Origin: Cochliopodium minus
Lineage: Eukaryota; Discosea; Himatismenida; Cochliopodiidae
DNA length: 23,008 nucleotides
Assembly: GCA_024220525.1 (NCBI GenBank)
Contig: JAMYWO010000483.1
Location: 1 to 23,008 of the forward strand
Reading direction: 5' to 3'
Shown: positions 1 through 21,249 of the stretch, piece by piece
Numbering within the stretch: the stretch's first letter is position 1
Layout of the letters: every line of letters begins with the position of its first letter
The notes under the pieces: model-generated
What the model saw: only the letters and a program-made list of their open reading frames with translations
The model's database searches: none
What the model was told of the DNA's origin: nothing
Translations under genes and position numbers: made by a program

Positions 1-85
1 ATAAAAAATAAAAAATAAAAAATAAAAAATAAAAAATAAAAAATAAAAAATAAAAAATAAAAAATAAAAACAAAAAACAAAAAAC
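1..85. repeat. A/T heptamer tandem repeat at the left edge
   Basis: About nine near-perfect copies of TAAAAAA are followed by decayed CAAAAAA copies. The repeat probably lies inside an intron of the M1-family gene, whose last visible exon ends at 202 with a good donor site. A window beginning inside such a repeat suggests an assembly break here, but that is inference. Confidence 0.85.
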
Positions 86-201: not shown

Positions 202-3200
202 AAGTCAAAAGCCTCAATGCTTCAATGGAGTTTACAGTTGCTGATTGGTATTGTTTAAAAATCCAAGCGAAATCGTCTGAATCACCGTACTTAGCACCAG
301 CAATATAAACAGCTTTTCGTTTTTGTTCGAAAAAAGGTTAAAATGATTTAAAAATAAAATAAAAATAAAAAAAAATAATAAAGATTTATTAATACATTAA
401 AAATAAAAAAAAAAAAAGGAGGGGTGGAAGTACCTTGTCTGATATTTGGATCAACTTCATACGAAGAATTGTTTACCAAATTTTTGAAAATTTCGTAAGC
501 AACGTCTTTACAATCTTCCACATTATATTTTACAGCGAATGGAAGAATGACAGACCTTTTTTAAGAATCAAAAAATTGTTAATTTAAATAAATATTTTTT
601 TATTTTTTTATTTTTTTATTTTTTAAATAAATATTTTTAAATTTTTTTAAAATTGATTTTTTTTACCTCAAAATTTTTTTTTCTTCAGATTCGTTAGTTG
701 TTGAAGTAAATCCAACGTAGTTGTACACGTCTTTGGTGATGTGCTTGATAAAATCTTGGAAAGAGTCTTTGGAAGGAAAATCCAAAAGTCTTTCCAGTTT
801 GCCGAAAATCTAAAAATAAAAGAGCAAAATAAATAAATAAAAATAAAATAAAAAAAAAAATAAAAAATTGGAAAAAACATTTGATTTGACTTTAAAATAT
901 CAATAAAAATAATAGTAAAAATTAAAAAAAAAAAAAATAATACTAAAAATAAAAATAAAATAAAATCAATAAAATGAAAAAACATTTGAATAAACTTTTA
1001 AATAAAATATCAAAAAATAAAAATAATACTAAAAATCAAAAAAATATAAAAATAAAATAAAAATAAACTTTTAAATAAAATATAAAAATCAATAAAAATG
1101 ACAATACTAAAAATCAATAACATATAAAAATAAAAAAAATATGTACATCTACGACACTTTCCCATATGCTGTAATCAGTTGAATTTCGAACTAACAAAGC
1201 CAAATCAAATAGATTTCCAACTGCTACAGAAGATTGGGCGTTATTTGGAGAACGAAACAAACTTAACAAATCGTAGAAAATGGAGGAAATGTCTCTAGGG
1301 TCGAAATGGTTGATCCCTGATGTGTTGGCAATGTTGAAAATCTTGTTTAACATTGTTTGAGTATATGCAACTCTATAAAAACCTTTTTTTTTTTTTTTTT
1401 TCAGTTGGGTAAAAAATTAAAAAAAAATTAATAATAAAAATTAATTGAAAAATAAAAAATGTTGAAAAAGAAAAACTAGATTTATGTAGAATACTAAAAA
1501 ATTAAAAATATAAAAATAGATTTATCGAAAAATATTGACTATAAAAATAAGAAATATTGAATTGGAAAGAAAAAACTTTATATAGAATACCAAAAAAGTT
1601 AAAATTATAATTTAAAAACAAAAAATGAATTGGAAAAAATTTTTTGTAAGAATAAATTCTGAGAGATATTAAGATTTTTATAACTCAACAAACTTAAGTT
1701 ACCACATTATTGATCAATGAGATCCAAAATTTTCATACTATCATTTTTACTAACAAAATTTTGAATATAATCCAATTCAATAAAAAATGAAATTAAAAAA
1801 TAAATAAAAATGGGTTCTCAATTTTAAAAAAAAAAATTACAAAAGATTCATATTAAAATTAAAAATGAAATTAAAAAATAAATAAAAATGAGTCCTGATT
1901 TAAATTAATTAATATTTTAGAATAAAAAATGATAACAAAAAATTAAAAAAAAGTAATATTTCTTGCCAATTCTCCCAGGATTAACAACAAAATAACTGTT
2001 TTCTTTCGATTCTTCAAAAGAAGTGCTCTTTATTGTATGATCAAACTTTATACGGACAGTGGCGGACAATTTAGTGTTGTATTGAAGAGTCAAAGAAACC
2101 CACCATAACTGGGATGTGTTGGTGGAAGGAAATGTGTAGAATGGTGTTTGTGTCGCAGCCAAGGTGTTGTTGGAGACGGTTTGGAATTTTATGACTGGAT
2201 AATTCGCGACAAATGTCCAATCATTAACAAAATCATTAATTGAGAATTTCTGAAAAAAAAGTTTTAAAATAAAATAAAAGTAAAAATAAACATGAAAATA
2301 AAATGAAAATAAAATGAAAAAATATTCAAAAAATATAAAAAAAATATAAAAATTTTAAAATAAAGCAAACAAAATGAATGTAAAAAAAAATAAAAATTAA
2401 TTTATTAATAAATAAAAAAAAATATAATTTATTTTAAAAAAAAAAAATTATTTAAAAAATTTACAGAAGTAGATTGAAAAGAATTCCACAAATCTTTGGA
2501 GTTTACAGAACCATATGCATATGAACTCATGAAGTTGTTAATACAGCTCGCAAAAGTTCCTATCTCAACAGCTTCCAATCTTTACAAAAAAATTAACAAC
2601 ATTACTTAAAAAAAAAATACTAATAAATAAATAAAAATTTAAAATAAAATAAAATAAAATATAAAAATACCAATTTAAAGTTGAAAAATAAAAAATAAAA
2701 AACAAAAATAGAATAAAATAAAATAAAATAAAATAAAATAAATAAAAATAAATGAAAATAAATGAAAATAACAATAAAAATAAAATAAAATTAGAAAATA
2801 TGTTTTTTTTTTTACCTGTCATAAACCATTTGTAAGATTGAAGAACCTTTACTGTTAGAAATATCGTCAAATAAAGCTTCTACATCATACTCTGTGACAA
2901 CACTATCTTCAGAAGGTTCCAAGGCATGAGAATACTCCAAAGAATCGTAGAAAAGAGCGTTTTGGTATTCGTAGTGGAAGCTTCTCCAGATGTCCCATGA
3001 TGGTTGGAGGGTGTCTACTGCCAAATATTGAAAGAAATTGTCTAATCCCTCTGTTATCCAAAGAGAATTCCACCACTAACAAAAAAAAATTCGAAAAACA
3101 GATAAAAATAATGAAAAATAAAATAAAATAAATTAAACAAATAAAAATTCTCAGTCATGTAAATTCTCAATAATATAAAATAATCAAACAATAACAAATC

Positions 3201-5053
3201 AAATTTCTGATAATTAAATAACAATATTAAATAACATAAATAAAATAAAAATAAAATAAAAATAAAATAAAAATAAAATAAAAATAAAAATAAAATAAAA
3301 ATAAATGATAAAAATAAAATAAAAATAAAATAGATATAAAATAAAAATAAAAATATGAAAAAATTAATCAAAAATTTTTTTTTTACCTTTACATTGAATA
3401 AAACACCTAAAAATTGAGATTGATGTAAAATTTTTTCACAAAAATAATTTTTTAATAGCAAAATACCCATCCATTGTTGAGCAATCTCACGAGCAAGATT
3501 CAAATAGTTTTGGCGGGTTTGAAAAGTGCTGGAATACTGATCAATCAACACATCGCTTTCTAAAATGATGATGAGTCCCAAATTTGAAGTAGCGTCTATT
3601 TCTCCTTTGGGGGAATAATTTGGCAAGCAAAAAATATCCAATTTTTTAGATGGCATCTTTGGAGAAGAAAAAATAAAAAATAAAAAATTTTTAGAAAAAG
3701 TTTAAAAATTTTAAAAAACAAGAAAATATCAATAAATTTTGATAAATAAACAAATTTTTAAATTTAAATTGAAAAACATAATAAAAAACATATAAATAAT
3801 TTTAAAAATTCAACAGATTTGATAAGAAATAAAATTAAAAATTAAAAAAATATTTGGAAAATAAAAAATTAAAAATTAAAAAAAAAACTACTGGGACGGT
3901 GAAATACTGCTGATAAAAATTTAATATGTTTTTGACAACTGCAACAGCACTGATAGCCTGAGAAATTTTCTGTTGTTGAACATACACAGAAATGTCAACA
4001 TCACCCACTTTGTCGCTAGCTTTTATGAAGTTGGAAGCGACGAAACCAAAAACGGAGGTGGATATCATGGGAGTTGTTCGGAAGGAAACTTGTACAGTCG
4101 AGTTGGTATCTTCAGTTCTTGAGGAAACTGGGGTGCTTGAAATGATTGAAACGAAATCGTTGTTTGTGGTGATTTGAAGAGTAAAATTGGATCTGATGTT
4201 TGGTTCATCAAAACCTTTTTTTTAAAAATTAAATTGAAATAATGAGGTAATAAAAAATGATTGATCCAACAATCAAAATAATTTTTTATCTTCAAAGAAA
4301 ACGATATATGTTCAATTTGTTGTGCAAAATCTTTATAATCACTTTTAAAATTTAAAAAAACTTTTTACATGGGAAAGCTAATCTTGCATTCATAGGTTGG
4401 AATTGAGTTGCTATTACAGTTTCTTTATCATTGCTCACATCTACGAAATTGGTGATGAATATTCCTCTGTTATCTTCTCTTATGGTCCCACTGAAATACA
4501 ATCTCAATTGGATATTTGATATCCCGTTGTATAGAGGCACATTGTTGAGCACCTCAAATCTCATGATGATATAATCGTTTACTGCATCATAATCTAACTG
4601 ATCTGCACGCACATATCTATCATCTGATGTATAATCGGTGAATGCATCTACTTGTCTTACCTCTGCCTTCTCTATCGTAAGATCTCCATGTACTACTATG
4701 AGATTTGTCTTTTGAGATAACGTCATATCAATGATCACCATCCCATTGAATTCTTTATTGGCCACATCCAGGTCCAATGAGATATTATAATGTAATGGCA
4801 CTGTATATGTTGGTAATCTCGCTGATGTCCATTTCAATGGAGGATGTATTATCTTATTACGAACAACTGCAACTATAATCAACAATAATACGATCAATAT
4901 CACCGCTCCTATTATCACCCCCATCATTTTCAGCTTATTCTTCTTCTTTGTTTCTCCATCATGATTATAGACAGTCCCAAATGGATTCTGATCACGAATT
5001 GAATCAAAATTATCAACTACTTGAATGTCACCTTCATTTAATTCATGTTTCAT
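202..5053 (-). CDS. M1-family (aminopeptidase N-like) type II membrane protein, catalytic residues lost; C-terminus outside window
   Basis: Recognised as a peptidase family M1 protein. Exons: 4369-5053, 3892-4214, 3467-3656, 3387-3406, 2816-3075, 2465-2579, 1967-2249, 1147-1382, 667-809, 434-555, 202-312; reading phase is consistent across all of them, giving about 829 residues. A cytosolic N-terminus and one membrane segment (about residues 45-64) precede the M1 N-terminal domain (RLPTYTVPLHYN, then TQFQPMNARLAFPCFDEP), the peptidase domain and an ERAP1_C-like helical domain (NVEDCKDVAYEIF, then AVYIAGAKYG). M1 enzymes use HEXXH-X18-E for zinc; here it reads REIAQ (392-396)-X18-E415, so both histidines are gone while Glu393 and Glu415 remain. 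GAMEN is replaced by DATSN (357-361) and the catalytic Tyr in the ISY-KG segment is Asn480. The frame is intact, so this is more likely a functional pseudoenzyme (binding or scaffold role) than a dead gene. The last exon ends at a donor (GTAATATT) and the family's C-terminal helices are still missing, so the gene continues to the left. Confidence 0.85.
1383..1966 (-). other. 584-nt GC-AG intron of the M1-like gene
   Basis: The upstream exon ends VNPGRI-G and the downstream exon begins FYRVAYTQ, rebuilding the conserved M1 stretch G-F/Y-Y-R-V-x-Y. The only donor giving this join is GCAAGA at 1966, with acceptor AAAAG ending at 1383. GC-AG is the usual minor variant of U2 introns. It is one of the longest introns in the window. 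Confidence 0.75.
3232..3357. repeat. Intronic AAAATA/AAATA simple repeat
   Basis: Runs of AAATAAAAT and related 5-6 nt units lie in the 311-nt intron of the M1-like gene. Similar tracts lie in its other introns, for example 2641-2800 with a clean TAAAA pentamer near 2711-2745. On the coding strand these are T-rich, so they double as polypyrimidine-like intron sequence. Confidence 0.8.
3387..3406 (-). other. 20-nt micro-exon of the M1-like gene, beside a 60-nt stopless intron
   Basis: This exon encodes VLFNVK plus two bases of the preceding Gly codon. It sits between a 60-nt intron (3407-3466, GTATTTTG...TTTTTAG) and a 311-nt intron (3076-3386). Splicing gives QQWMGVLFNVKWWNSLW, which matches the M1 segment QWFGN-LVTMKWWNDLW residue for residue in length. 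The 60-nt intron is a multiple of three without an in-frame stop, so its retention would insert 20 residues without shifting the frame. Confidence 0.8.
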
Positions 5054-5810: not shown

Positions 5811-7281
5811 TCAATTAAATTTCTTAAAGGTATCAGTAGATTGATCTTTCGAAAATAACTTTACGTTAGCATTGGTTTTGTTATATCCGAAGCAATCTTC
5901 AGGGATGTAGACATGCTCCCTCTTTTCAGCAGCAGTAGCACTATGAGAGTGAGGAACAGATCTGAAACCAAACTGATCGTTTCTGTAATTTCCACCACGT
6001 TGGTTGGGAGTGGAAGCAGAATAACAGAAATCAAACTGGGTGACAACCTTTTCGACAGCAGCACCATAATAACCACCCTGATAGTTAGGAAGGGAAAGAT
6101 CCGACAAAGCAAGAGTGTAATGACTTTGAGAGACACAAGTGTTGTAAACGACAGGAGTCAGATCATCGTTCTCATTTCTGAGAAGCGAAGAGAAAGCACC
6201 AATGGTGGTTCTTTTGCTTCCGCTGTTGGAGCAGTGGATGTTGGCATAGACGGCGGAAGAAGTTACATTGGTTCCTGGATAGGTTTCGACGGCGAGTCCT
6301 CCACAACTTTGGAAACCAGCGATGCTTCCGCTCAACAACAAGTTGATGATGTTTGCTTGTTTGAGTGTTCCGAACAAAGCGACAGGTCCGTCTGCATCTA
6401 TGGTTACATTGAGGTAGTGACCGTTGCCGTTCAAAGTTCCTCTGAAAGATTGGCCGTTTCCAGAGAGGAGAGGTTGGGTGAGGGTACATTCTATGCTGGT
6501 TGTCAATTGGTAGCTTCCGGTCTCTTTGATCAACAAAAGATCGCTACATTGGTTGATATCTACAACTCCATTGTTAGTAGAGGTGCTCACCCCTGTTGCC
6601 GAGGTTTCAGTATATGCATCTCTTTTGTTTTCGTCAATGCTTCTTGCTCCATTTGTCGAAGTGATTGGAGATACTTCCACCGTTCCATCCGCCAAAACCT
6701 CCGCTACATGATTCACTCCGTACAAGATCAAAGTTCTTCCAGGGATGTAATAGAAAGATACCACATTGAATTGCAATGTCCCTTCTTCTTTTGTGTTGAA
6801 CTTTAAACTTTTGATTCCCTTGATGGTTGCCAATGGGGTGCTCAGTTTCAAGTTTACAGAGTAAAATGCTTCCGAGGTTCCCAACGCAGTCCCATTTCTT
6901 TGTACCAACTCTTGATCCTTCACTTTGTACTCTTTTGTTGCTTCGATCCCAAGTACCACTGAGGCGATCATCAATCCTATGAATGTTGCTACGAATAGTA
7001 CTCCTCCCACTGCCACCCACTTCATGATGGTGTTTTTCACTCTGATTCTTGCGAAGGTACTTGCTGCATTTCTGATATCTTCATCATTCATCTCTCCTTC
7101 TACTCCCCATTTCTCCAACACTAAATATATATAAATTTTGATAAAATAAATAATTCTATAAAAATATCTATATATCCATTTTATATTTTTGGAAATATGA
7201 GAGAAATTCTATTTATTTATATCATATCATATTCTTTTTCTTACCTTTTTGTGTTCTTGATCGTTTTAACTCAAACTCCAT
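5811..7281 (-). CDS. Type II membrane protein with GLUG/beta-helix-like ectodomain (448 aa)
   Basis: Two exons: 7245-7281 encodes MEFELKRSRTQK plus one base; 5811-7120 encodes the rest and ends in TGA. The GTAAGA donor and TATTTAG acceptor keep phase, giving MEFELKRSRTQKVLEKWG. A basic cytosolic N-terminus of about 46 residues is followed by one membrane segment (about 47-71, WVAVGGVLFVATFIGLMIAS), so the bulk should be outside the cell or in a lumen. Roughly residues 200-330 show spaced hydrophobic turns of the pattern FRGTLNGNGHYLNV...ALFGTL...INLLLSG, as in GLUG-type beta-helix surface proteins. Sequons (NGT, NVT, NKT) and scattered Cys fit an extracytosolic, glycosylated domain. No catalytic motif is visible, and the exact function is unknown. 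Base composition is richer in G+C than the neighbouring introns and spacers. The preceding M1-like gene also encodes a type II membrane protein, but no functional link is shown. Confidence 0.8.
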
Positions 7282-7758
7282 TTCAAAAAAAATTATTTGG
7301 TTTCTCTTTTTATTTTTATTTTTTTATTTGAATTTATAATATGAAATATAAATTTCTTTTTTTGCCAAAGTATTTTTCAGTTTAGGAAATCTTTGAACAA
7401 ATTTTTCGAATTGAGAACTAGTTTATATTTTTTTTATATTAAAAAGTTCAAAAACTAAAAATGTTTAATGTTCACTTTAGAAAATGAAAAAAAATTGTTT
7501 TATTTTTTGTTGTTGTTGGATTGTTGATTTTGAACTCCACTATACGAATTTTATATTTCTTAGCTCAAATATAAAATTATTTAATTAAAAAATGGAATCT
7601 TCAATTCTTAAAATAGAGTAAATTTTATTTTTAATTTCATTTTTACAAGATAAACTTCATTGTTTTTATTCTTTTTTTATTTTAAAATTGAATTAAAAAT
7701 TTAAGAAATTTTGAAGAAGAAATTTAAAGTAAAATTCTTTCCCAAGGTTGAATTTCTT
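7282..7758. other. Intergenic spacer, 477 nt
   Basis: This AT-rich spacer lies between the start of the GLUG-like gene and the stop of the first NDUFA4/B12D-like gene. It must hold the promoter of the former and the 3' end of the latter. I see no further gene, RNA or clear motif in it. Confidence 0.6.
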
Positions 7759-8182
7759 TTAGAATTTGTAAGGATTTTTGACAGTGACTTCTTTTACAAA
7801 AGGAAGCTAAAATAAAAAAAAAAAAATATAAAATTTAAATAAAATTTGGCTTTTAAAGCTCTCTTACTTTGTTCAAATTATCGACATTCTTTATTGTGAC
7901 AATTCTAGGACAATTTTTTTCAAATCTCTCTTTCAATGGCAAAGAAGGGTTGATGCTTTAATACAAATGTAATAAAAATAAAAAAAACTTAAAATTTTGT
8001 TTACTAAACATCATTGTGATTAAAAATCAAGTTTGTGATGTAAGCTCCTGACAAAACCACTCCTGCTCCTACGCATCCCACAACAGGTATTATCTACATT
8101 TAAAATTTACTTTAAATTGATTGTTTTTTAAATGAATAATTACTTCTGGTGATGTTTTCAAGTGTTTAAAGAATATATTCAT
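7759..8182 (-). CDS. NDUFA4/B12D-like small mitochondrial protein, copy A (87 aa)
   Basis: Exons 8144-8182, 8005-8093, 7868-7955 and 7759-7806 have GT-AG junctions and consistent phase. The protein begins MNIFFKHLKTSPE, has one membrane segment (IIPVVGCVGAGVVLSGAYI), then NHNDVY, then PLKERFEKNCPRIVTIKNVD and a C-terminal LPFVKEVTVKNPYKF. The layout K-x-(S/H)P-x-x-x-P-x-x-G, membrane helix, N-x-DV, P and NVD-x-L-K matches NDUFA4, a small subunit now assigned to cytochrome c oxidase, and the related B12D family, both about 80-90 residues. Six related genes lie in this window; copies A and B share all three intron positions. An in-frame ATG six codons upstream is possible, but the chosen start aligns with its sisters. 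The family call rests on pattern and size, so complex membership is inference. Confidence 0.75.
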
Positions 8183-8356
8183 TTTTTTTTTAAATTTCAT
8201 ATCATTCAAATAAAAAATGTAATTCATTTCAAGAGAAAATAATATGAAATTCAAAATAATGAAATTTTGAATTTAAAATTTCAATCAACTTTCGCCCAAA
8301 AAAAAAAAAAAAAATCAAAAAAACATCAAGATTGACAATGAATTTTAATATCATTT

Positions 8357-8820
8357 TTAATTTATTATCATTTCTTTAAATGGATTTTCATTTTTTACTG
8401 TTTTTATCAATGGAATCTAGATAAAAAAGTAAAAGGAAAATAACTTGAAAATTTCGAAAGAAAGTAAAAACTTTTTTTTACCTTTGCCAACGAATCAACA
8501 TTTTTGATGGTTATTATTCTTGATGTATCTTTATCAAATTTTTCTACAAGAGGAACAGAATGATCGAAACTGTTCAAATTGGAAATTGTGTTTTAGAAAA
8601 TTTTTGAACAAGGAAATAATTTTTCATTTTTATTTACTTAACATCGTTTTGATTCAACAATAAATTTCCCATGTAAGCTCCCAACAATGTGACTCCTCCT
8701 AAAACACATCCAATAACTGGAGTTATCTTTAAATTTGAAAAATTATTTAATAATCAAAAAAAAAAATTTTCTTTTTACTTCAGGTGAGGTTTTGAGGTGT
8801 TTAAAGAATGTTTTGAACAT
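8357..8820 (-). CDS. NDUFA4/B12D-like small mitochondrial protein, copy B (92 aa)
   Basis: Exons 8779-8820, 8638-8726, 8482-8569 and 8357-8416, ending in TAA, are all GT-AG and in phase. The protein starts MFKTFFKHLKTSPE, continues into the membrane helix (ITPVIGCVLGGVTLLGAYMG), LLNQNDVN, FDHSVPLVEKFDKD, IITIKNVDSLAK and IPLIKTVKNENPF. It aligns end to end with copy A, including the introns after SPE, after the NDV codon pair and after the L-x-K motif. KNVDSLAK is the best match to the NVDYSKL segment of animal NDUFA4. It sits head to tail with copy A (175 nt apart) and head to head with copy C across a 698-nt spacer. It is probably an inner-membrane protein of one helix. Confidence 0.75.
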
Positions 8821-9518
8821 TTTCTTTGTTTTATTTGTTAGTTTTGTTTTTTGTTTTTATTTCTTTTTTATTGAATTCCAAAATTTAATTTAAATAAATT
8901 TTTTTTATTTTTTTCTCTGAAAAATAAATTTCATTAATCAACTAACTTGTTAAAAAAAATGAACACATTCAATTAAATATGAAATCACCCCGATAATTAA
9001 TCTAATTTTGGTTGATTGATAAAAGAGGAAATAAATTTATCGTTATAAAAAAAACTCCCTTTTAAATTTATAATTTGATTAATAACCCAACTCTATCTCA
9101 ATTGTAATTGATTATGCTTATTTTTATGTATCAAACATGAAATAATCTCTCTTTCATAAATTTTTTTTTTTTTTTGATAAATTAACAAGATCATCCACAT
9201 TGAAAAAATAAAATATATTTGAACTTGTTAATCAATGTATTTATATTGTACAATAAAACATTTCACTATTTTCTTGCTTTCTTTGAAATAAGGATTTGGA
9301 TAAAAGTGAGAAATAATTTTTAAAATTTTTTTTTCAAACATAAAATAATATCCCTCTTCATTTGAATGTGATTCACAAGGATGATATGTTTCATAATGAT
9401 TCAATGATCCTCAAACAAAAAAGAAAATCTATTTCAAAATAAAATTTATAGTGATTAAAATAAAATATAAAAAAAAAAAAAAATCTCTTTTTTTTTCAAA
9501 AAATAAATCTTTCAAAAA
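8821..9518. promoter_or_regulatory. Divergent upstream region between NDUFA4-like copies B and C
   Basis: The 698-nt AT-rich spacer separates the start codons of two paralogs transcribed away from each other, so it should contain both promoters. I see no open frame of note and no motif I can name. The only compositional island is ATCACCCCGATAATT near 8986. Confidence 0.5.
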
Positions 9519-13064: not shown

Positions 13065-13351
13065 TCAATTTGTCAAAAAAAAACATCAACTCATTTGATG
13101 AATTGGAAATTGTCAAAAAACAAAATATAGTCAATCAAAGAAAAAATATTTTAATTGAAAGTATTCAAAAAAAGAAAGATTTAAAACTGAAACTCTTATT
13201 ATAATCTAATTGAGATCTATTTAGGATAAATTAAATAATTTGAAATTAACCTCTTTATTCTTGTAAAGATTAAATAATTTAAAAAATGATTAATTATTTT
13301 TAAAATAAAAAAAAAATCCCTATATTTTAATAAAAGAAAATTTAACTGAAA
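13065..13351. promoter_or_regulatory. Divergent upstream region, RCC1-type gene and NDUFA4-like copy D
   Basis: The 287-nt AT-rich spacer lies between two start codons facing away from each other and must supply both promoters. No specific element is recognisable. Confidence 0.5.
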
Positions 13352-14020
13352 ATGAAGAATTTGAATAAAAAATTAAATAACAAAGTAAACTTGTTTCGAA
13401 AAATCAAACACATGAAAATATCTCCAGAAGTATTTCCTTTGTTAGGGATTGTATCTGCAGGATTGATTCTTGGTACAACGTATTTCACTCATCTCTTAAC
13501 AAGTCACAATGATGTTTAGTAAAAACCATTTTTCAATCTCAAAATTTGATTATTTTTTTTTTATTTTAAAATTTTTTTTCGGTGAAATAAATTTAAAATT
13601 TTTGTTTTTTGTGTTCAAAAAGTTAATTCTTTTCTTTTTCTTAGTGTCGATCAATCTGTTCCTCTTCGTGAAAGATTTGATAAAGATGTTCCTGTGCTAC
13701 TCACAAAGGAAAATATCCACAAAATTAAAATTATTCCTTTTTTCTCTGATCCCAACCTCAAGAATCCATTTGAAAATAAGTATCCCAATAATATTGCACT
13801 TGAAGAACCAAGAATCAAAGAGATTAAAAATAATATAGAAAATATAGCTCAAATAAAAGATGAAACATCTCATAATCTAATAAAACAAATAACATCAAAT
13901 TTTGATCAAGAAGAAATTCTTCAAGATGTATGGGGATCATTATACAACCAACATTTTTATGCTGTAGATCAATACAAATCAAATAAACATCCTTCAAGCT
14001 TTAATGATCTTCCTTGGTGA
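13352..14020 (+). CDS. NDUFA4/B12D-like protein with long C-terminal extension, copy D (180 aa)
   Basis: Exons 13352-13518 and 13645-14020 (TGA stop). The core reads FRKIKHMKISPEVFPLLG, helix GIVSAGLILGTTYFTHLLTS, HNDVY, VDQSVPLRERFDKDVP, then IKIIPFFSDPNLKNPFENK; the last part aligns with MPFVHKLTVKSPFD of copy C. The intron that follows SPE in copies A-C is absent; the phase-2 intron after the NDV motif is kept. Unlike the 85-92-residue members, this one runs about 80 residues further as a hydrophilic tail that ends VWGSLYNQHFY...SFNDLPW. The core is almost identical in DNA to copy F, including the whole intron, while the tail differs. It is likely a one-helix mitochondrial protein; the role of the tail is unknown. 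Confidence 0.75.
13379..13818 (+). repeat. 440-bp duplicated block, copy 1 (partner at 14962-15401)
   Basis: The block aligns with 14962-15401 without gaps, with 11 substitutions counted by eye (97.5% identity). The run 13424-13677, which includes the whole 126-nt intron, is identical. Identity stops abruptly in the middle of coding sequence after CCAAGAATCAA. Confidence 0.9.
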
Positions 14021-14660: not shown

Positions 14661-14937
14661 TTTTTTCATCCACCATATAATTATATGTACATTTTAATCA
14701 CACTGAGTAAACAATTCAAAAAAAAAAAGTTGGAAGGAAGAAACATCCTGCTGATAAATTTTAAATGTAAATAATCAATAAAGATTTTTCGTCCACTTTT
14801 GTGTATTGTTTTGTTTGAATTTTAGGGTCTTTTTGAATGAGTAATTTGAACCTAAAATTTGATTTATCATTCTTTGATTTTTGATGTAAAGAATTTTCAA
14901 AAAAAAAAAAACAAATTCAATTTTCAAAAAATCAATC

Positions 14938-15654
14938 ATGAAAAAATTTAAAGAATTAAGCAACAAAGTAAACTTGTTTCGCAATATCAAACACATGAAA
15001 ATGCCACCAGAAGTATTTCCTTTGTTAGGGATTGTATCTGCAGGATTGATTCTTGGTACAACGTATTTCACTCATCTCTTAACAAGTCACAATGATGTTT
15101 AGTAAAAACCATTTTTCAATCTCAAAATTTGATTATTTTTTTTTTATTTTAAAATTTTTTTTCGGTGAAATAAATTTAAAATTTTTGTTTTTTGTGTTCA
15201 AAAAGTTAATTCTTTTCTTTTTCTTAGTGTCGATCAATCTGTTCCTCTTCGTGAAAGATTCGATAAAGATGTTCCAGTGCTTCTCACAAAGGAAAATATC
15301 CACAAAATTAAAATAATTCCTTTTTTCTCGGATCCTAACCTCAAGAATCCATTTGAAAATAAGTATCCCAATAATATTGCACTTGAAGAACCAAGAATCA
15401 ACCACAAGATCAAAACATCTGAGCTATTGTTTTTGGAGAAAAAGAAAAAACTTAAGAATATCTCTTTCTTGAAAGATGAAGCATCAATAAAACCTAACAA
15501 ACTAGTTGAAATCAAAAAAATTGACAAACAAGATAATATTTGGGATTCTCTTAACGGAATACATTATTTCCCAGAAGGAAAAGATCTCCACCTTGATCAT
15601 CACAACAAAAATATTTTTGATTTCAACGACTTTCCTATGATCCTCACTTGGTGA
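14938..15654 (+). CDS. NDUFA4/B12D-like protein with long C-terminal extension, copy F (196 aa)
   Basis: Exons 14938-15101 and 15228-15654 (TGA). The core is FRNIKHMKMPPEVFPLLG, GIVSAGLILGTTYFTHLLTS, HNDVY, VDQSVPLRERFDKDVP and IIPFFSDPNLKNPFENK. It differs from copy D in three residues over the duplicated block; all six substitutions in its second exon are silent. After PRIN the tail is unrelated in sequence but ends with a similar pattern, NIWDSLNGIHYF...FDFNDFPMILTW, so the two tails share a W-x-SL and FNDxP ending. The SPE intron is absent, as in copy D. Likely a one-helix mitochondrial protein with an extra hydrophilic domain of about 90-100 residues. Confidence 0.75.
14962..15401 (+). 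repeat. 440-bp duplicated block, copy 2 (partner at 13379-13818)
   Basis: This is the second copy of the block shared by paralogs D and F. It covers most of exon 1, the entire intron and the first 174 nt of exon 2. Confidence 0.9.
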
Positions 15655-15887: not shown

Positions 15888-15965
15888 ATTTTTCGCCGAT
15901 AAAATTTTTTAAAAATAAAAAAAAAATGTTCAGGAATTAAAAAAAAAAAAAAATCAAAATCAGAA

Positions 15966-16372
15966 ATGAAAAAATTAAACTTTGTAAGACAATTTAACCA
16001 ATTAAAACTTTCAAAAGATGTAAACAAGATTTATCCAGTTCTTGGATTTGCTTCCCTGGTACCAATAATCGCATCATTCAGACCAGAAGAGGAAATAAAG
16101 TAAAAAGAATAGAAAAAAACAAATAATTTAATTTAAAAAATGAAAAATATTAATTATTTTTTTATTTTTTAAGTGAAAATCAAAATGAATCAAATATTCA
16201 GAACAAAGGAAGCATTTCAATTGTGCCATTTTTATATGGAGAATTCATGGAAAATCCATTGGATGGGATTATGATGGCTCCAATAATAAATAACAAAGAT
16301 ATTGACAATGATAAAGAAATGGAAGAAGAGGATGATAGATTGAAATATCTTCCGATTTTTAACATTCAATGA
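15966..16372 (+). CDS. Diverged NDUFA4/B12D-like protein, copy G (110 aa)
   Basis: Exons 15966-16099 and 16174-16372 (TGA). MKKLNFVRQFNQLKLSKD leads to a helix IYPVLGFASLVPIIASF, then a polar stretch, SIVPFLYGEFMENPLD and an acidic tail (DNDKEMEEEDD). The single intron is phase 2, placed soon after the helix as in all sisters, and IVPFLYGEFMENP aligns with IIPFFSDPNLKNP of copies D and F. The HNDVY motif is lost and the helix is short. This is the most diverged member and is called by position, intron phase and overall pattern rather than by strong identity. Function is unknown. Confidence 0.6.
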
Positions 16373-16548: not shown

Positions 16549-18281
16549 TCAGTTTTGTTTGGGATTAGGATTCTTTGATTTTGTTAAAATAGAAAACAAA
16601 CTGTTTAATGTGGGAGGAGGACACTCTTTGCGATACTCTTGATCGGATTTCCACCAAAAAGGTTCTTTGTCTTCCACCAAGGTGCCGAAAACTCTGTCCC
16701 ATACTTTGGTGATGGCGCTAAAATTCTTGGCGTTCTCTCCGTATGTGTGGTGCATGTTGTGATCAATAGGTGAAAGTAAGATCCAACTCAAAAAACCTGG
16801 ATATTTAAAAGTACAAGCGCTGTGCAGTACCTAATTTAAAAAACAAAATAAAAAAAAATAAATAAAAATTAATCTCCTAACGAATAAAATTTCAAAATTA
16901 GAATCAAATTTAAACAATTTAATTTATGGACAAAAAAAAAATTAATAAAAACAAAAGTTTCAAAAAAAATTAATAAAAAAAATAATAAAAAAAAATTAAT
17001 AAAATTTTGAAATATACCAAAGCATGAAACACAAGAATTGCATTAACTGCGTGAATGAGATATTCGTTAAAGTGAAGGCCACAATATAGAGGGATCAAAT
17101 ATGGAAAAATGCCAGACATGAGAACCTCGAATGGGTCGATTGCGATACCTGACCACCCTGTTGGAGGTCTGAAGGCGTGGTGGTTTGCGTGTGAGAGTTT
17201 GTAGCCGATACCAGTGTGGAGGACCCATCTGTGTAAAATGTAAAAAACAAGATCCCACAATATCTAAAAATGATTGATGAATAATTAATGTTAATGGAGT
17301 TTAAGAATGGAAAATTAATTTAAAATGAAAAATAAAACATTAAAATGAATTTTTTTAAAAAAAACTTTGTCCAAGTTAACTTTAAAAACAAACTTTCGCA
17401 TCGATATTAAATAAAAAATAAAATTTTCTCTTTCTAATAAAGCTATTTTATTCTGAGGCTTTATGAGAATCCCAAAAAAAGTTTTTTTTTTGGAAAATCA
17501 TTTTGAATTCATTATTCTTAAAAATAAGATTCCAAGAAATTAGAGATGTCCAAAATTTTACAACAGTTCAAAATTTGTTAGTTATAAATTATTATCAGCT
17601 AACAAAGTTGTAAATTTGGACATGTCAACCAAGAAATTTCATATAATTCAATATTTCAAACTTTTTATAAACAATTTCGGATCAAATTTTTTATATCTCA
17701 AAGCAGATATTATTATTTATCAATCAATTTTGATTCAAAATTTAAGATATCTCTTGTTTATATTCTTGAAACGAAATTTCATTGAAACAAAATTTAATTA
17801 GGGGAAATAATAATTCAAATTTATCAAATAAAAGGTTTTGTAAACGTATGTTCCTATATGAAACTTTACAATTCAATATCTTTTTTGAAAATTTATAATA
17901 ATATAAATAAATTCTTCTTACCAAGTATATAGGGATCTGCAAAATCAACCATGGGATCCCAAATTCCATAGGATTTTTATATAATCTCATCCCACTTCTA
18001 GATCCAAATTTTTCAGCAGCTAAAATGAAGAATTGAAGCACGGGTGTACCAGATAGCAATGAAATGAAGCCCAACATGATATCACTATTTAATTTGAATG
18101 ATATCACCTCAGGTCTCGTCTTGGAGGAGGACAATTTTCTGTAGAAAAAGTAATTTACTATCCAGCCATCAACCAAGTAGATCGAGATCCCAATTATACA
18201 TGATATAATGCATCTTAATTTCAATTCTGGATCAAAAAATACTTCCATAGATCCATTCCAAGTATTAGACAAGAATTGCAT
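16549..18281 (-). CDS. Fatty acid hydroxylase / sterol desaturase superfamily membrane enzyme (295 aa)
   Basis: Exons 17922-18281, 17018-17263 and 16549-16830 (TGA); both introns are phase 0. Several hydrophobic segments in the first 120 residues are followed by the three histidine boxes of this di-iron family: HRWVLH (131-136), HANHH (145-149) and HNMHH (226-230), plus WDRVFGT near the end. Such proteins are ER membrane oxidases that hydroxylate or desaturate sterols, sphingoid bases or fatty acids using O2 and electrons often supplied by cytochrome b5. A cytochrome b5 gene lies 2.2 kb away, but that proximity may be chance. All ligand histidines of the boxes are present, so the enzyme looks active. 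The segment HHAFRPPTGWSGIAIDP resembles the sterol C5-desaturase/C4-hydroxylase layout, but the substrate cannot be fixed from sequence. Confidence 0.88.
17264..17921 (-). other. 658-nt intron of the hydroxylase gene, holding an imperfect inverted repeat
   Basis: This is the longest intron in the window, with donor GTAAGAAG and acceptor TTTTTAG. It contains an inverted repeat: ATGTCCAAAATTTTACAAC (17546-17564) pairs with GTTGTAAATTTGGACAT (17607-17623), and inside it TTTGTTAG (17574-17581) pairs with CTAACAAA (17599-17606). No protein-coding or known RNA feature was recognised in the rest. Confidence 0.7.
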
Positions 18282-18534: not shown

Positions 18535-19778
18535 TTAAAAGAAAGATCCAACAAAAGGATACAGTAACTCCGAAAATATACGGAAAAAAGAATAAATAGC
18601 AATTAGTTTTGACACTAAAGTAATGATGGCAAAAATAAAGTTGCAATTGAATTTGGAAGGGGAAGGAGATTTGGGCTTGAGATCGAACTTCTGGGCAGAC
18701 TCCGAAACAGCATTGTTGGTCTTGATCTTTCCCATTGTATTTGACAAGATATTGAGGTTACTAGATATTTTGTTGTTCAAATCATTACCACTTTTAATAT
18801 TTCTATTAAAGTTTTTATTGTTAAAATTATTGTTATTGTTTATGTTTCTACTAAAATTGTTTTTTGAATAACTTTTGTTTTTAAAGTTTGAATGTATTGT
18901 ATCATTTAATTTTTTGGGCGGAAGTGGAGAAACGAAGACAAAGTCATCCTTCTTCAATTCTATCGTTTGATCCTCGTTTTTCTCGTTGAGATACGCCTCG
19001 GAATTAGATAAAATCGATTTTTTTTTTTCCTCACTCAATCTCCCTGTGATGAATTTGAATCCAAAGGAGCTCAGATTATATTTATTTAACATCCTGTCCT
19101 CCTTAGGATAAAAATCGATCGAATCACCATCATTCAAATCTGATCTCTCATTTTTATTCAACTTCTTTTGATTCACATGTGTTCCATTCGCTCCATAATT
19201 CTCTATCACATACTTCTTTCGAATATTCTCATTTATTTCAGTTCCATCTGAGGATATAGAATCGCTATTGGAATTGATATCCTTACACATCCCCCTATTA
19301 TCTCCTAATCTTATTTCAAAATGTTCTCTACTGATCACACTCAAATTGATATTCAATCCATCTGTTTTCTTCAATACTCTTCCCAAATAATTCCTCCCAA
19401 ATTTAAAAGGCAATTCTTCATTTTTGATCGTTATGATATTTATAGCTATTAAAAAATATCATAAATGAGTATAATCAAAACAAATATACATTTATTTCTT
19501 AGATATGTACCATATAATGGATCCTCTTTGTTCATTTCGAAATTATATATCCCTTTGTAACAAAATATCAATGTTATATAATCTTCAGAGTCTTTGGTTG
19601 ATTCCCCATTCGATATATCTTCTTCATCTTGCAATTCAAAGGATATTCTTTTATATTTTTTGGAATTTAGTGTGATCAGTGGAATTGATCCTTCATATGA
19701 AACTGATCTTTTGCTTTTCTTGTATGTGATTGAATTTGAATCATTAATGTTATTCTTTCTTTTTGTTTGTTTATTCAT
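18535..19778 (-). CDS. Tail-anchored FHA-domain protein (392 aa)
   Basis: Exons 19511-19778 and 18535-19445 (TAA); donor GTACAT, acceptor TTAATAG, phase 1. A basic N-terminus (KQTKRKNN, KKSKR) precedes an FHA domain at about residues 65-205, with the key landmarks FGRN (105-108), SREH (128-131), NGTHVN (176-181) and the LNDGDSIDF strand. FHA domains bind phosphothreonine peptides, and Arg107, Ser128 and Asn176 are the expected binding residues. A low-complexity Asn/Lys-rich linker follows, then a C-terminal hydrophobic segment (about 359-377), so the protein should be tail-anchored with the FHA domain facing the cytosol. The insert between SREH and NGTHVN is long, with an Asn/Ser-rich loop. 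Which membrane it sits in is not decided by the sequence. Confidence 0.85.
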
Positions 19779-20515: not shown

Positions 20516-21249
20516 ATGGATCATAACAAGCATTTGAATAGATTGAATCATATCAAGAATTGTTTATCACCATCATCTCCTTGTCAAAATAAATCGCTCA
20601 TCTTCAAGAATGATTGCAAAGAATTGGAGAGCAAGGTGAAAGAATATACGATGGATGATTTAAAGAAACACAATAAAGAAGGGGATCTATGGATATTGAT
20701 AAAAGGTGATTCAAAATATCGCTTTCTAATCATAAAATTAAAAAATTATAAAATTATAAAATATCAATCACTCCAAATGAAACATTTATATCATTATAAT
20801 TGAAATATGCTGTGATTTGAAGACATATCTCAATTCATTTTTTTTATTTATTGATATATTATATGTTATACATAAAATGTTTTGAATATATAATAAGCAA
20901 TTTCGAGATAATTGGGTCTATCCATCAAATAAATAATCTTGATTGGATTTAAATAATTAAAAAATTAAAAAATTAAAAAATAAAAAATTAAAAAATAAAA
21001 AATTCAATTAAAGGAAAAATATATGATGTGTCTGAATTTATGATTGACCATCCTGGAGGAGGAGATTTATTGCTTGACGTAGCAGGAAAAGATGCAACAA
21101 AGGGCTTCGACGAGGCAGGACACTCAAACGAAGCGTTGGCACAGTTGGAGGAACTTTATATAGGAGAATTGAAGAAAGAAGTTCCTCAAAACAGCAAAAA
21201 CAAAAAAAATGTATCAAAAAACAAAAAAGATGATAAAAAAAAGAAATAA
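20516..21249 (+). CDS. Cytochrome b5, soluble type (141 aa)
   Basis: Exons 20516-20705 and 21014-21249 (TAA), joined in phase 1 through the conserved segment [15 protein letters not shown]. The heme-binding landmarks are present: DHPGG (His76) and GHS (His100), with AGKDAT between them and LEELYIGEL after. Cytochrome b5 donates electrons to desaturases, hydroxylases and other oxidases. About 44 extra residues precede the domain, with three Cys and no clear targeting signal. The C-terminus is a Lys-rich tail instead of the membrane anchor common in this family, so the protein should be soluble or bound by charge. Start at 20516 is the first ATG in an open frame after the AT-rich leader. Confidence 0.92.

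Follow-up and report, generated by a model that had tools for sequence, protein, structure and literature searches.

The stretch of DNA analysed here, called the window throughout, comprises 23,008 nucleotides of the discosean Cochliopodium minus at the start of contig JAMYWO010000483.1 in assembly GCA_024220525.1 (G000:C465:1-23008 in our numbering; the genome is 44.65 Mb in 598 contigs). Its beginning holds a minus-strand gene, hereafter W (5053..202), which encodes a member of peptidase family M1 whose active site appears to have been lost, and which is one of four such copies in the genome (W, C23, C449 and C361; copies other than W are named by genome contig). As the initial annotation had claimed, eleven exons stay in frame: under splice-aware translation the in-window exons join into 829 codons with zero stops, and the span which that annotation singled out, 2816-3656, is exactly that of exons 3-5. 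The features of W, in the order of its transcript and with M1 positions referred to the aminopeptidase PSA, are as follows:

4369..5053, minus strand: exon 1, with the start codon, the predicted cytosolic tail and transmembrane helix, and most of the M1 N-terminal domain (PF17900); from splice-aware translation and spliced alignment
4976..4987, minus strand: NPFG, residues 23-26 of the predicted cytosolic tail, a candidate EH-domain ligand; from alignment
4859..4927, minus strand: predicted single transmembrane helix, residues 43-65, a hydrophobic stretch judged by eye
4397..4399, minus strand: Gln219 at the position of PSA Glu180; from alignment
3892..4214, minus strand: exon 2, in which PF17900 continues to the end of the M1 N-terminal domain
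3467..3656, minus strand: exon 3, with the apparently dead GAMEN and HEXXH motifs, the most conserved exon between W and C23 (54/63 amino acids)
3582..3596, minus strand: DATSN (residues 357-361) replacing GAMEN, preceded by four extra residues; from translation and alignment
3477..3491, minus strand: REIAQ (residues 392-396) replacing HEXXH; from translation and alignment
3387..3406, minus strand: exon 4, a 20-nucleotide micro-exon, VLFNVK, between QWMG and WWN; the C23 copy has the same 20-nucleotide exon
2816..3075, minus strand: exon 5, carrying WWNSLWITEG and FDDISNSKG
3049..3051, minus strand: Glu415, the kept position of the third zinc ligand; from translation and alignment
2854..2856, minus strand: Asn480 at the position of the catalytic Tyr (PSA Tyr438); from translation and alignment
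2465..2579, minus strand: exon 6
1967..2249, minus strand: exon 7, where the ERAP1_C match starts (residue 618), followed by a GC-AG intron
1147..1382, minus strand: exon 8, ERAP1_C domain
667..809, minus strand: exon 9
434..555, minus strand: exon 10
202..312, minus strand: exon 11, the last in-window exon
1..70, no strand: seven-base repeat (TAAAAAA)n at the contig start, read by eye

The exon ends were set by eye against known M1 proteins; a spliced aligner given the W protein returned the same exons except for the last base of the exon 11 partial codon, which is a check of consistency and not independent proof. The introns within the window follow the GT-AG rule in nine of ten cases, the other being intron 7 (1383-1966), which is GC-AG (GCAAG) and has a GT-AG counterpart in C23. 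The GC content is 0.36 in the exons and 0.11 in the introns.

The contig start truncates W after exon 11. With the C-terminal part of C23 as query, five matching places were recovered: C23 itself and contig C591 gave two each, those on C591 at 72% and 62% identity, and C449 gave the fifth. The places on C591 provide candidate exons 12 and 13 (locus L046, 1134-924 and 617-425), through which the frame continues to a stop, yielding a gene of 13 exons and 963 amino acids. C591 ends 92 bases upstream of exon 12, within a seven-base repeat that by eye is identical to that at the window start; given this shared repeat, intron 11 probably spans the break between C465 and C591. Exons 12-13 of W very probably lie at the end of C591. 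The two contigs, both ending in the identical repeat, appear to be neighbours.

A profile search, which the initial annotation had called for, matched three Pfam domains to W, all above the Pfam cut-offs: Peptidase_M1 (2e-39), ERAP1_C (2.2e-35) and M1_N (5.3e-33). These stand in the order of the family (M1_N, Peptidase_M1, ERAP1_C), which places W by homology in peptidase family M1. Among the best 60 of 82 matching structure chains, PSA (8sw0, E 2.5e-73) and ERAP1 (about 5e-70) align over about 745 residues, approximately 71-818, and the match to APN is weaker than that to PSA (E about 2e-57). PSA (NPEPPS, PDB 8sw0) has the same domains as W, with an alignment over residues 72-818, but it is cytosolic and has an intact HELAH-X18-E, GAMEN and Tyr438, whereas in W, which has a predicted N-terminal transmembrane stretch, neither His is present, nor are the GAMEN Glu, Glu180 and the Tyr. 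Likewise, the ectoenzymes ERAP1 and APN have M1_N, Peptidase_M1 and ERAP1_C in common with W, in which the active site is lost.

The residue-level reading of the initial annotation was reproduced in full: REIAQ at 392-396 is followed by 18 residues and then Glu415, preserving the X18 spacing; Glu393 is kept; DATSN lies at 357-361; and Asn480 takes the place of the catalytic Tyr. HEXXH-X18-E, GXMEN and the catalytic Tyr, the marks of an active M1 aminopeptidase, are therefore all missing from W. Judging from the aligned residues, two of the three zinc ligands are gone, so that a metal site of the kind found in active M1 enzymes cannot form; the oxyanion Tyr is missing too, as are the two Glu residues believed to grip the N-terminus of a substrate, the second of which corresponds to PSA Glu180. 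According to PMC10343166, Glu180 of PSA is likely to contact the substrate N-terminus, and mutation of the PSA Tyr alone lowers kcat about 1000-fold. An alternative exon supplying HEXXH, which the initial annotation had named as grounds for rejecting its claim, was discarded as a candidate: the contiguous HE..H codon pattern has 0 matches on either strand of the window (0.87 expected by chance), in a test confined to contiguous motifs, intron-split ones falling outside it. W is very probably a pseudoenzyme, as far as its sequence can tell.

A search of the genome for M1 domains found 21 places, exon by exon. Spliced models recovered intact motifs in C47 (PSA-like), C50 (HEIAH, GAMEN, Tyr) and C324 (HEYFH, GAMEN, Tyr), and damaged active sites in four copies, with the following residues at the HEXXH, GAMEN and Tyr positions:

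W: REIAQ; DATSN; Asn at the Tyr position
C23: REMAH; DATSA; Asn at the Tyr position
C449: HGICQ; FGISS; Thr at the Tyr position, in a less certain column (four residues are inserted, and the next position holds a Tyr)
C361: KEISE; KGVSN; Tyr position unreadable, as is the model past the QWLG region

The GAMEN Glu is Ser in all four damaged copies, and none of them retains the full H, E and H of HEXXH. Another residue stands at the position of the catalytic Tyr in the three copies where it is readable, with the reservation on the C449 column. At the PSA Glu180 position W, C23 and C361 have Gln, and C449 has Glu.

Three trees of 7, 7 and 8 rows were computed, in which C361 fills 44% of the columns and the N-terminal part of C50 34%. 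C50 was entered as two separate parts (N-terminal and catalytic), not joined as one gene, and the rough or partial models of C8, C424, C39, C414, C217, C57, C324 and C181 were left out of trees and counts. W and C23 pair at 100/99 to 100/100. The damaged copies group together at 100/100 without the C50 parts. Adding the catalytic part of C50, in a tree that omits C361, gives 100/99 for this group, and so does adding the N-terminal part of C50; in both trees that include C50, its part adjoins the damaged clade at 100/99 under the midpoint root. The grouping of C449 with C361 reaches 89/92 or 93/94. By parsimony, the Glu-to-Ser change would have preceded the split of the four damaged copies, with zinc ligands lost separately thereafter. 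These relationships are best explained if a membrane aminopeptidase was duplicated, probably in a protist lineage outside the opisthokonts, and gave rise to at least four related copies. The lineage call comes from two EF-1alpha-like translations, among six places recovered, which lack the insert typical of opisthokonts; a conserved 18S word gave 0 matches, and the nuclear-receptor family gave none in a search whose control was also without a match.

Some observations on the other loci may be added. Exons 1-5 and 6-13 of C23 (L012 5785-7770, L039 5551-8529) lie out of order on the same strand, about 15 kb apart; a true permutation, with exons 6-13 upstream of 1-5, was rejected in favour of an error in scaffold order, which is likelier because the microsatellite at the break contains a gap of a single N. 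In C50, the N-terminal part (near 37k) and the catalytic part (near 71k) are out of order as well, an N lying near the break. A PSA-like copy on C39 (L014 4250-7172) can be modelled only with a stop and odd exons, which may reflect either decay of the gene or an inaccurate model. The C181 copy, which matches W weakly, we take to be TAF2-like. As for a neighbourhood shared with the window, open reading frames of the C23, C449, C361, C50 and C47 loci matched only M1 exons and their opposite strand.

W and C23 both have 13 exons with matching phases and no stops. Over 949 codons they are identical at 0.655 of amino acids, with nonsynonymous (dN) and synonymous (dS) divergences of 0.237 and 1.733 by NG86 and of 0.224 and 2.133 by maximum likelihood; the resulting dN/dS of about 0.10-0.14 comes from one paralog pair and is approximate, dS being near saturation. 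When neutral drift was simulated at 0.2, 0.5 and 0.85 substitutions per site, with 100 runs at each level, it introduced on average 25, 43 and 52 stops, with minima of 12, 28 and 37, against none in W or C23. C23 and W hold identical derived residues at 392, 360, 480 and 219; Gln396 of W is unshared by C23, which keeps His396, and rests on a single assembly. The support that the initial annotation asked for, orthologs with the same change and a dN/dS well below 1, was thus obtained for Arg392, Ser360 and Asn480 at the ratio just given, but in a same-genome paralog and not at residue 396, and under near-saturated dS. Because of the open frames, the consistent exon phases and a dN far below dS, W is better read as a functional pseudopeptidase than as a pseudogene, and purifying selection has in all likelihood kept the gene open for a function. 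The pair W and C23 accordingly combines the two properties that define an M1 pseudopeptidase, lost catalytic residues and a gene held by selection, on the strength of this one comparison of paralogs; the earlier claim of catalytic loss in an intact, selected gene is to this extent supported.

Conservation between W and C23 is not uniform. In exon 3, which carries both altered motifs, identity is 86%, against 568/886 amino acids (64%) elsewhere (Fisher p 3.0e-4, uncorrected for the choice of exon). Gene conversion was considered as the cause and rejected, as synonymous positions diverge there as elsewhere: identical codons are used at 26/53 identical residues in exon 3 and at 311/547 elsewhere (p 0.31). 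In the same exon W is only 33% identical to the active C50, which suggests that the site was altered and then held in W and C23; its identity is 32% to C449 and 47% to C361. Of the 84 positions invariant in four active proteins (from residue 338 on), W keeps 45, C23 48 and C449 43.

At the N-terminal end of the protein, the short tail (residues 1-42) and the hydrophobic stretch (43-65) fit a type-II layout by eye only, and APN is an M1 enzyme with this membrane layout. NPFG is found in three tails, those of W, C23 and C449. EH domains bind NPF, and the genome contains three EH-domain matches, on C58.

We propose as the best overall explanation, to which we would give an even chance, that W is a functional type-II membrane M1 pseudopeptidase that binds a ligand without cutting it and bears an NPF tail for endocytosis. 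The ectodomain would retain the M1 fold, and its former catalytic canyon would bind a peptide or protein without cleavage; NPFG in the short cytosolic tail would then allow EH-domain adaptors to internalise or recycle the receptor. Taken separately, ligand binding through the altered pocket is plausible, at slightly less than an even chance, and the endocytic role of the tail is more tentative. A fuller version, rather unlikely as a whole, is that of a small, non-cutting receptor family which a protist evolved from a membrane aminopeptidase. Loss would have begun with the exopeptidase Glu, probably along with the catalytic Tyr, and the zinc ligands would then have drifted in a different way in each branch; in W and C23, selection would have made the canyon a new binding site that is linked to endocytosis via EH domains.

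Several observations weigh against this proposal. The receptor role is deduced from sequence, and the rough model of the C361 tail has no NPF. The near-saturation of dS leaves dN/dS approximate, and an average over one pair cannot tell when the selection acted. Pairs of active proteins are also most alike in the exon-3 region (C47/human PSA 0.75, C47/ERAP1 0.67, C50/C47 0.68), and hence the excess identity of W and C23 can partly reflect the buried core of the fold and not a new pocket. The identity of C449 to W is not raised in exon 3 (0.32, versus 0.30 to 0.45 in other parts), so conservation of the pocket does not extend to all members of the clade. Finally, exons 10-11 (78%) and 12-13 (70%) are also well conserved between W and C23, and the top 40-residue windows fall within residues 863-904, the best with 95% identity; given such strong C-terminal conservation, it may be the C-terminal domain, and not the pocket, that provides the working surface.

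This last consideration leads to an alternative which is unlikely but deserves to be kept in view, namely that the dead protein is a regulatory partner subunit, which uses domain IV at its C-terminus to pair with an active membrane M1 enzyme (e.g. C50) and alters the stability, location or activity of that enzyme, while the dead pocket does little. Membrane M1 enzymes dimerise through domain IV, the strongest W-C23 conservation lies in precisely this C-terminal domain, and the intact-motif C50 copy adjoins the dead clade and has an N-terminal part with a transmembrane stretch on the same contig; however, a domain IV interface leaves the raised exon-3 conservation of W and C23 unexplained, and the proposed partner is known as two separate gene parts. 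Less likely still is a structural scaffold or adhesion protein, in which the exposed faces matter and the pocket is buried packing. The variety of zinc-motif residues among the copies (REIAQ, REMAH, HGICQ, KEISE) is what would be expected if their identity were free in a kept fold, and the similarity of active pairs in the exon-3 region fits as well, but the identical derived residues at 392, 360, 480 and 219 in W and C23 speak against such freedom. That W is still an active hydrolase using other residues or another metal arrangement is very improbable: Glu393 and Glu415 are indeed kept in W and C23, but W lacks two metal ligands together with the oxyanion Tyr and the pair of Glu residues at the substrate N-terminus, and the Tyr mutation of PSA by itself has the roughly 1000-fold effect on kcat cited above from PMC10343166. 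A pseudogene or assembly error, suggested by the cut of W at a repeat-rich contig end and the split, disordered C23, is hardly credible in view of 13 open exons whose phases agree between two copies, of a dN well under dS and of derived residues common to independent contigs.

The remainder of the window encodes: 1) on the minus strand (5811-7208), a protein that is hydrophobic near its N-terminus and without a match in Pfam, which by eye resembles a sequence in L013 on C324, the same locus as a PepN-like gene; 2) several short genes on both strands (7724-8860, 13346-14020, 14890-15654 and 15903-16372) that look by eye like B12D/MLRQ (NDUFA4-like) proteins, one of the two tested lying above the Pfam cut-off (2.6e-6) and one below (5.9e-4); 3) a fatty acid hydroxylase (16549-17263); 4) an FHA-domain protein with a hydrophobic C-terminus (18535-19458); and 5) a cytochrome b5 domain (20992-21249).

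TAF2 and the nematode inactive M1 homologs have the M1 fold without a zinc site. M1 pseudopeptidases are already known as a kind; it is the four-copy clade that is new. The nearest functional precedent for W is yeast Tma108, classed as an M1 pseudopeptidase in a 2024 review of inactive metallopeptidases (PMC11266112); the review describes it as thought to bind the N-termini of nascent chains in its pocket, at the ribosome, without cutting them, and lists it with HExxH-x18-E and one substrate-binding residue absent. W differs in being apparently membrane-anchored and in having lost two zinc ligands, the Tyr and the GAMEN Glu. C. elegans ANP-1 is described in PMC6857582 as an active-type enzyme. 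No protist family of membrane M1 pseudopeptidases was found in literature covered by titles and abstract openings, with most subscription journals uncovered, and we make no claim of absence.

The class of event is familiar, and nothing established is overturned. M1 pseudopeptidases nevertheless look sparsely documented, Tma108 being the sole M1 case in the available part of the 2024 review (PMC11266112). In C. minus, graded loss of the active site stands beside an intact-motif copy in one genome, which makes the order of loss readable, and the clade allows a test of whether an aminopeptidase canyon may be re-used as a receptor pocket.

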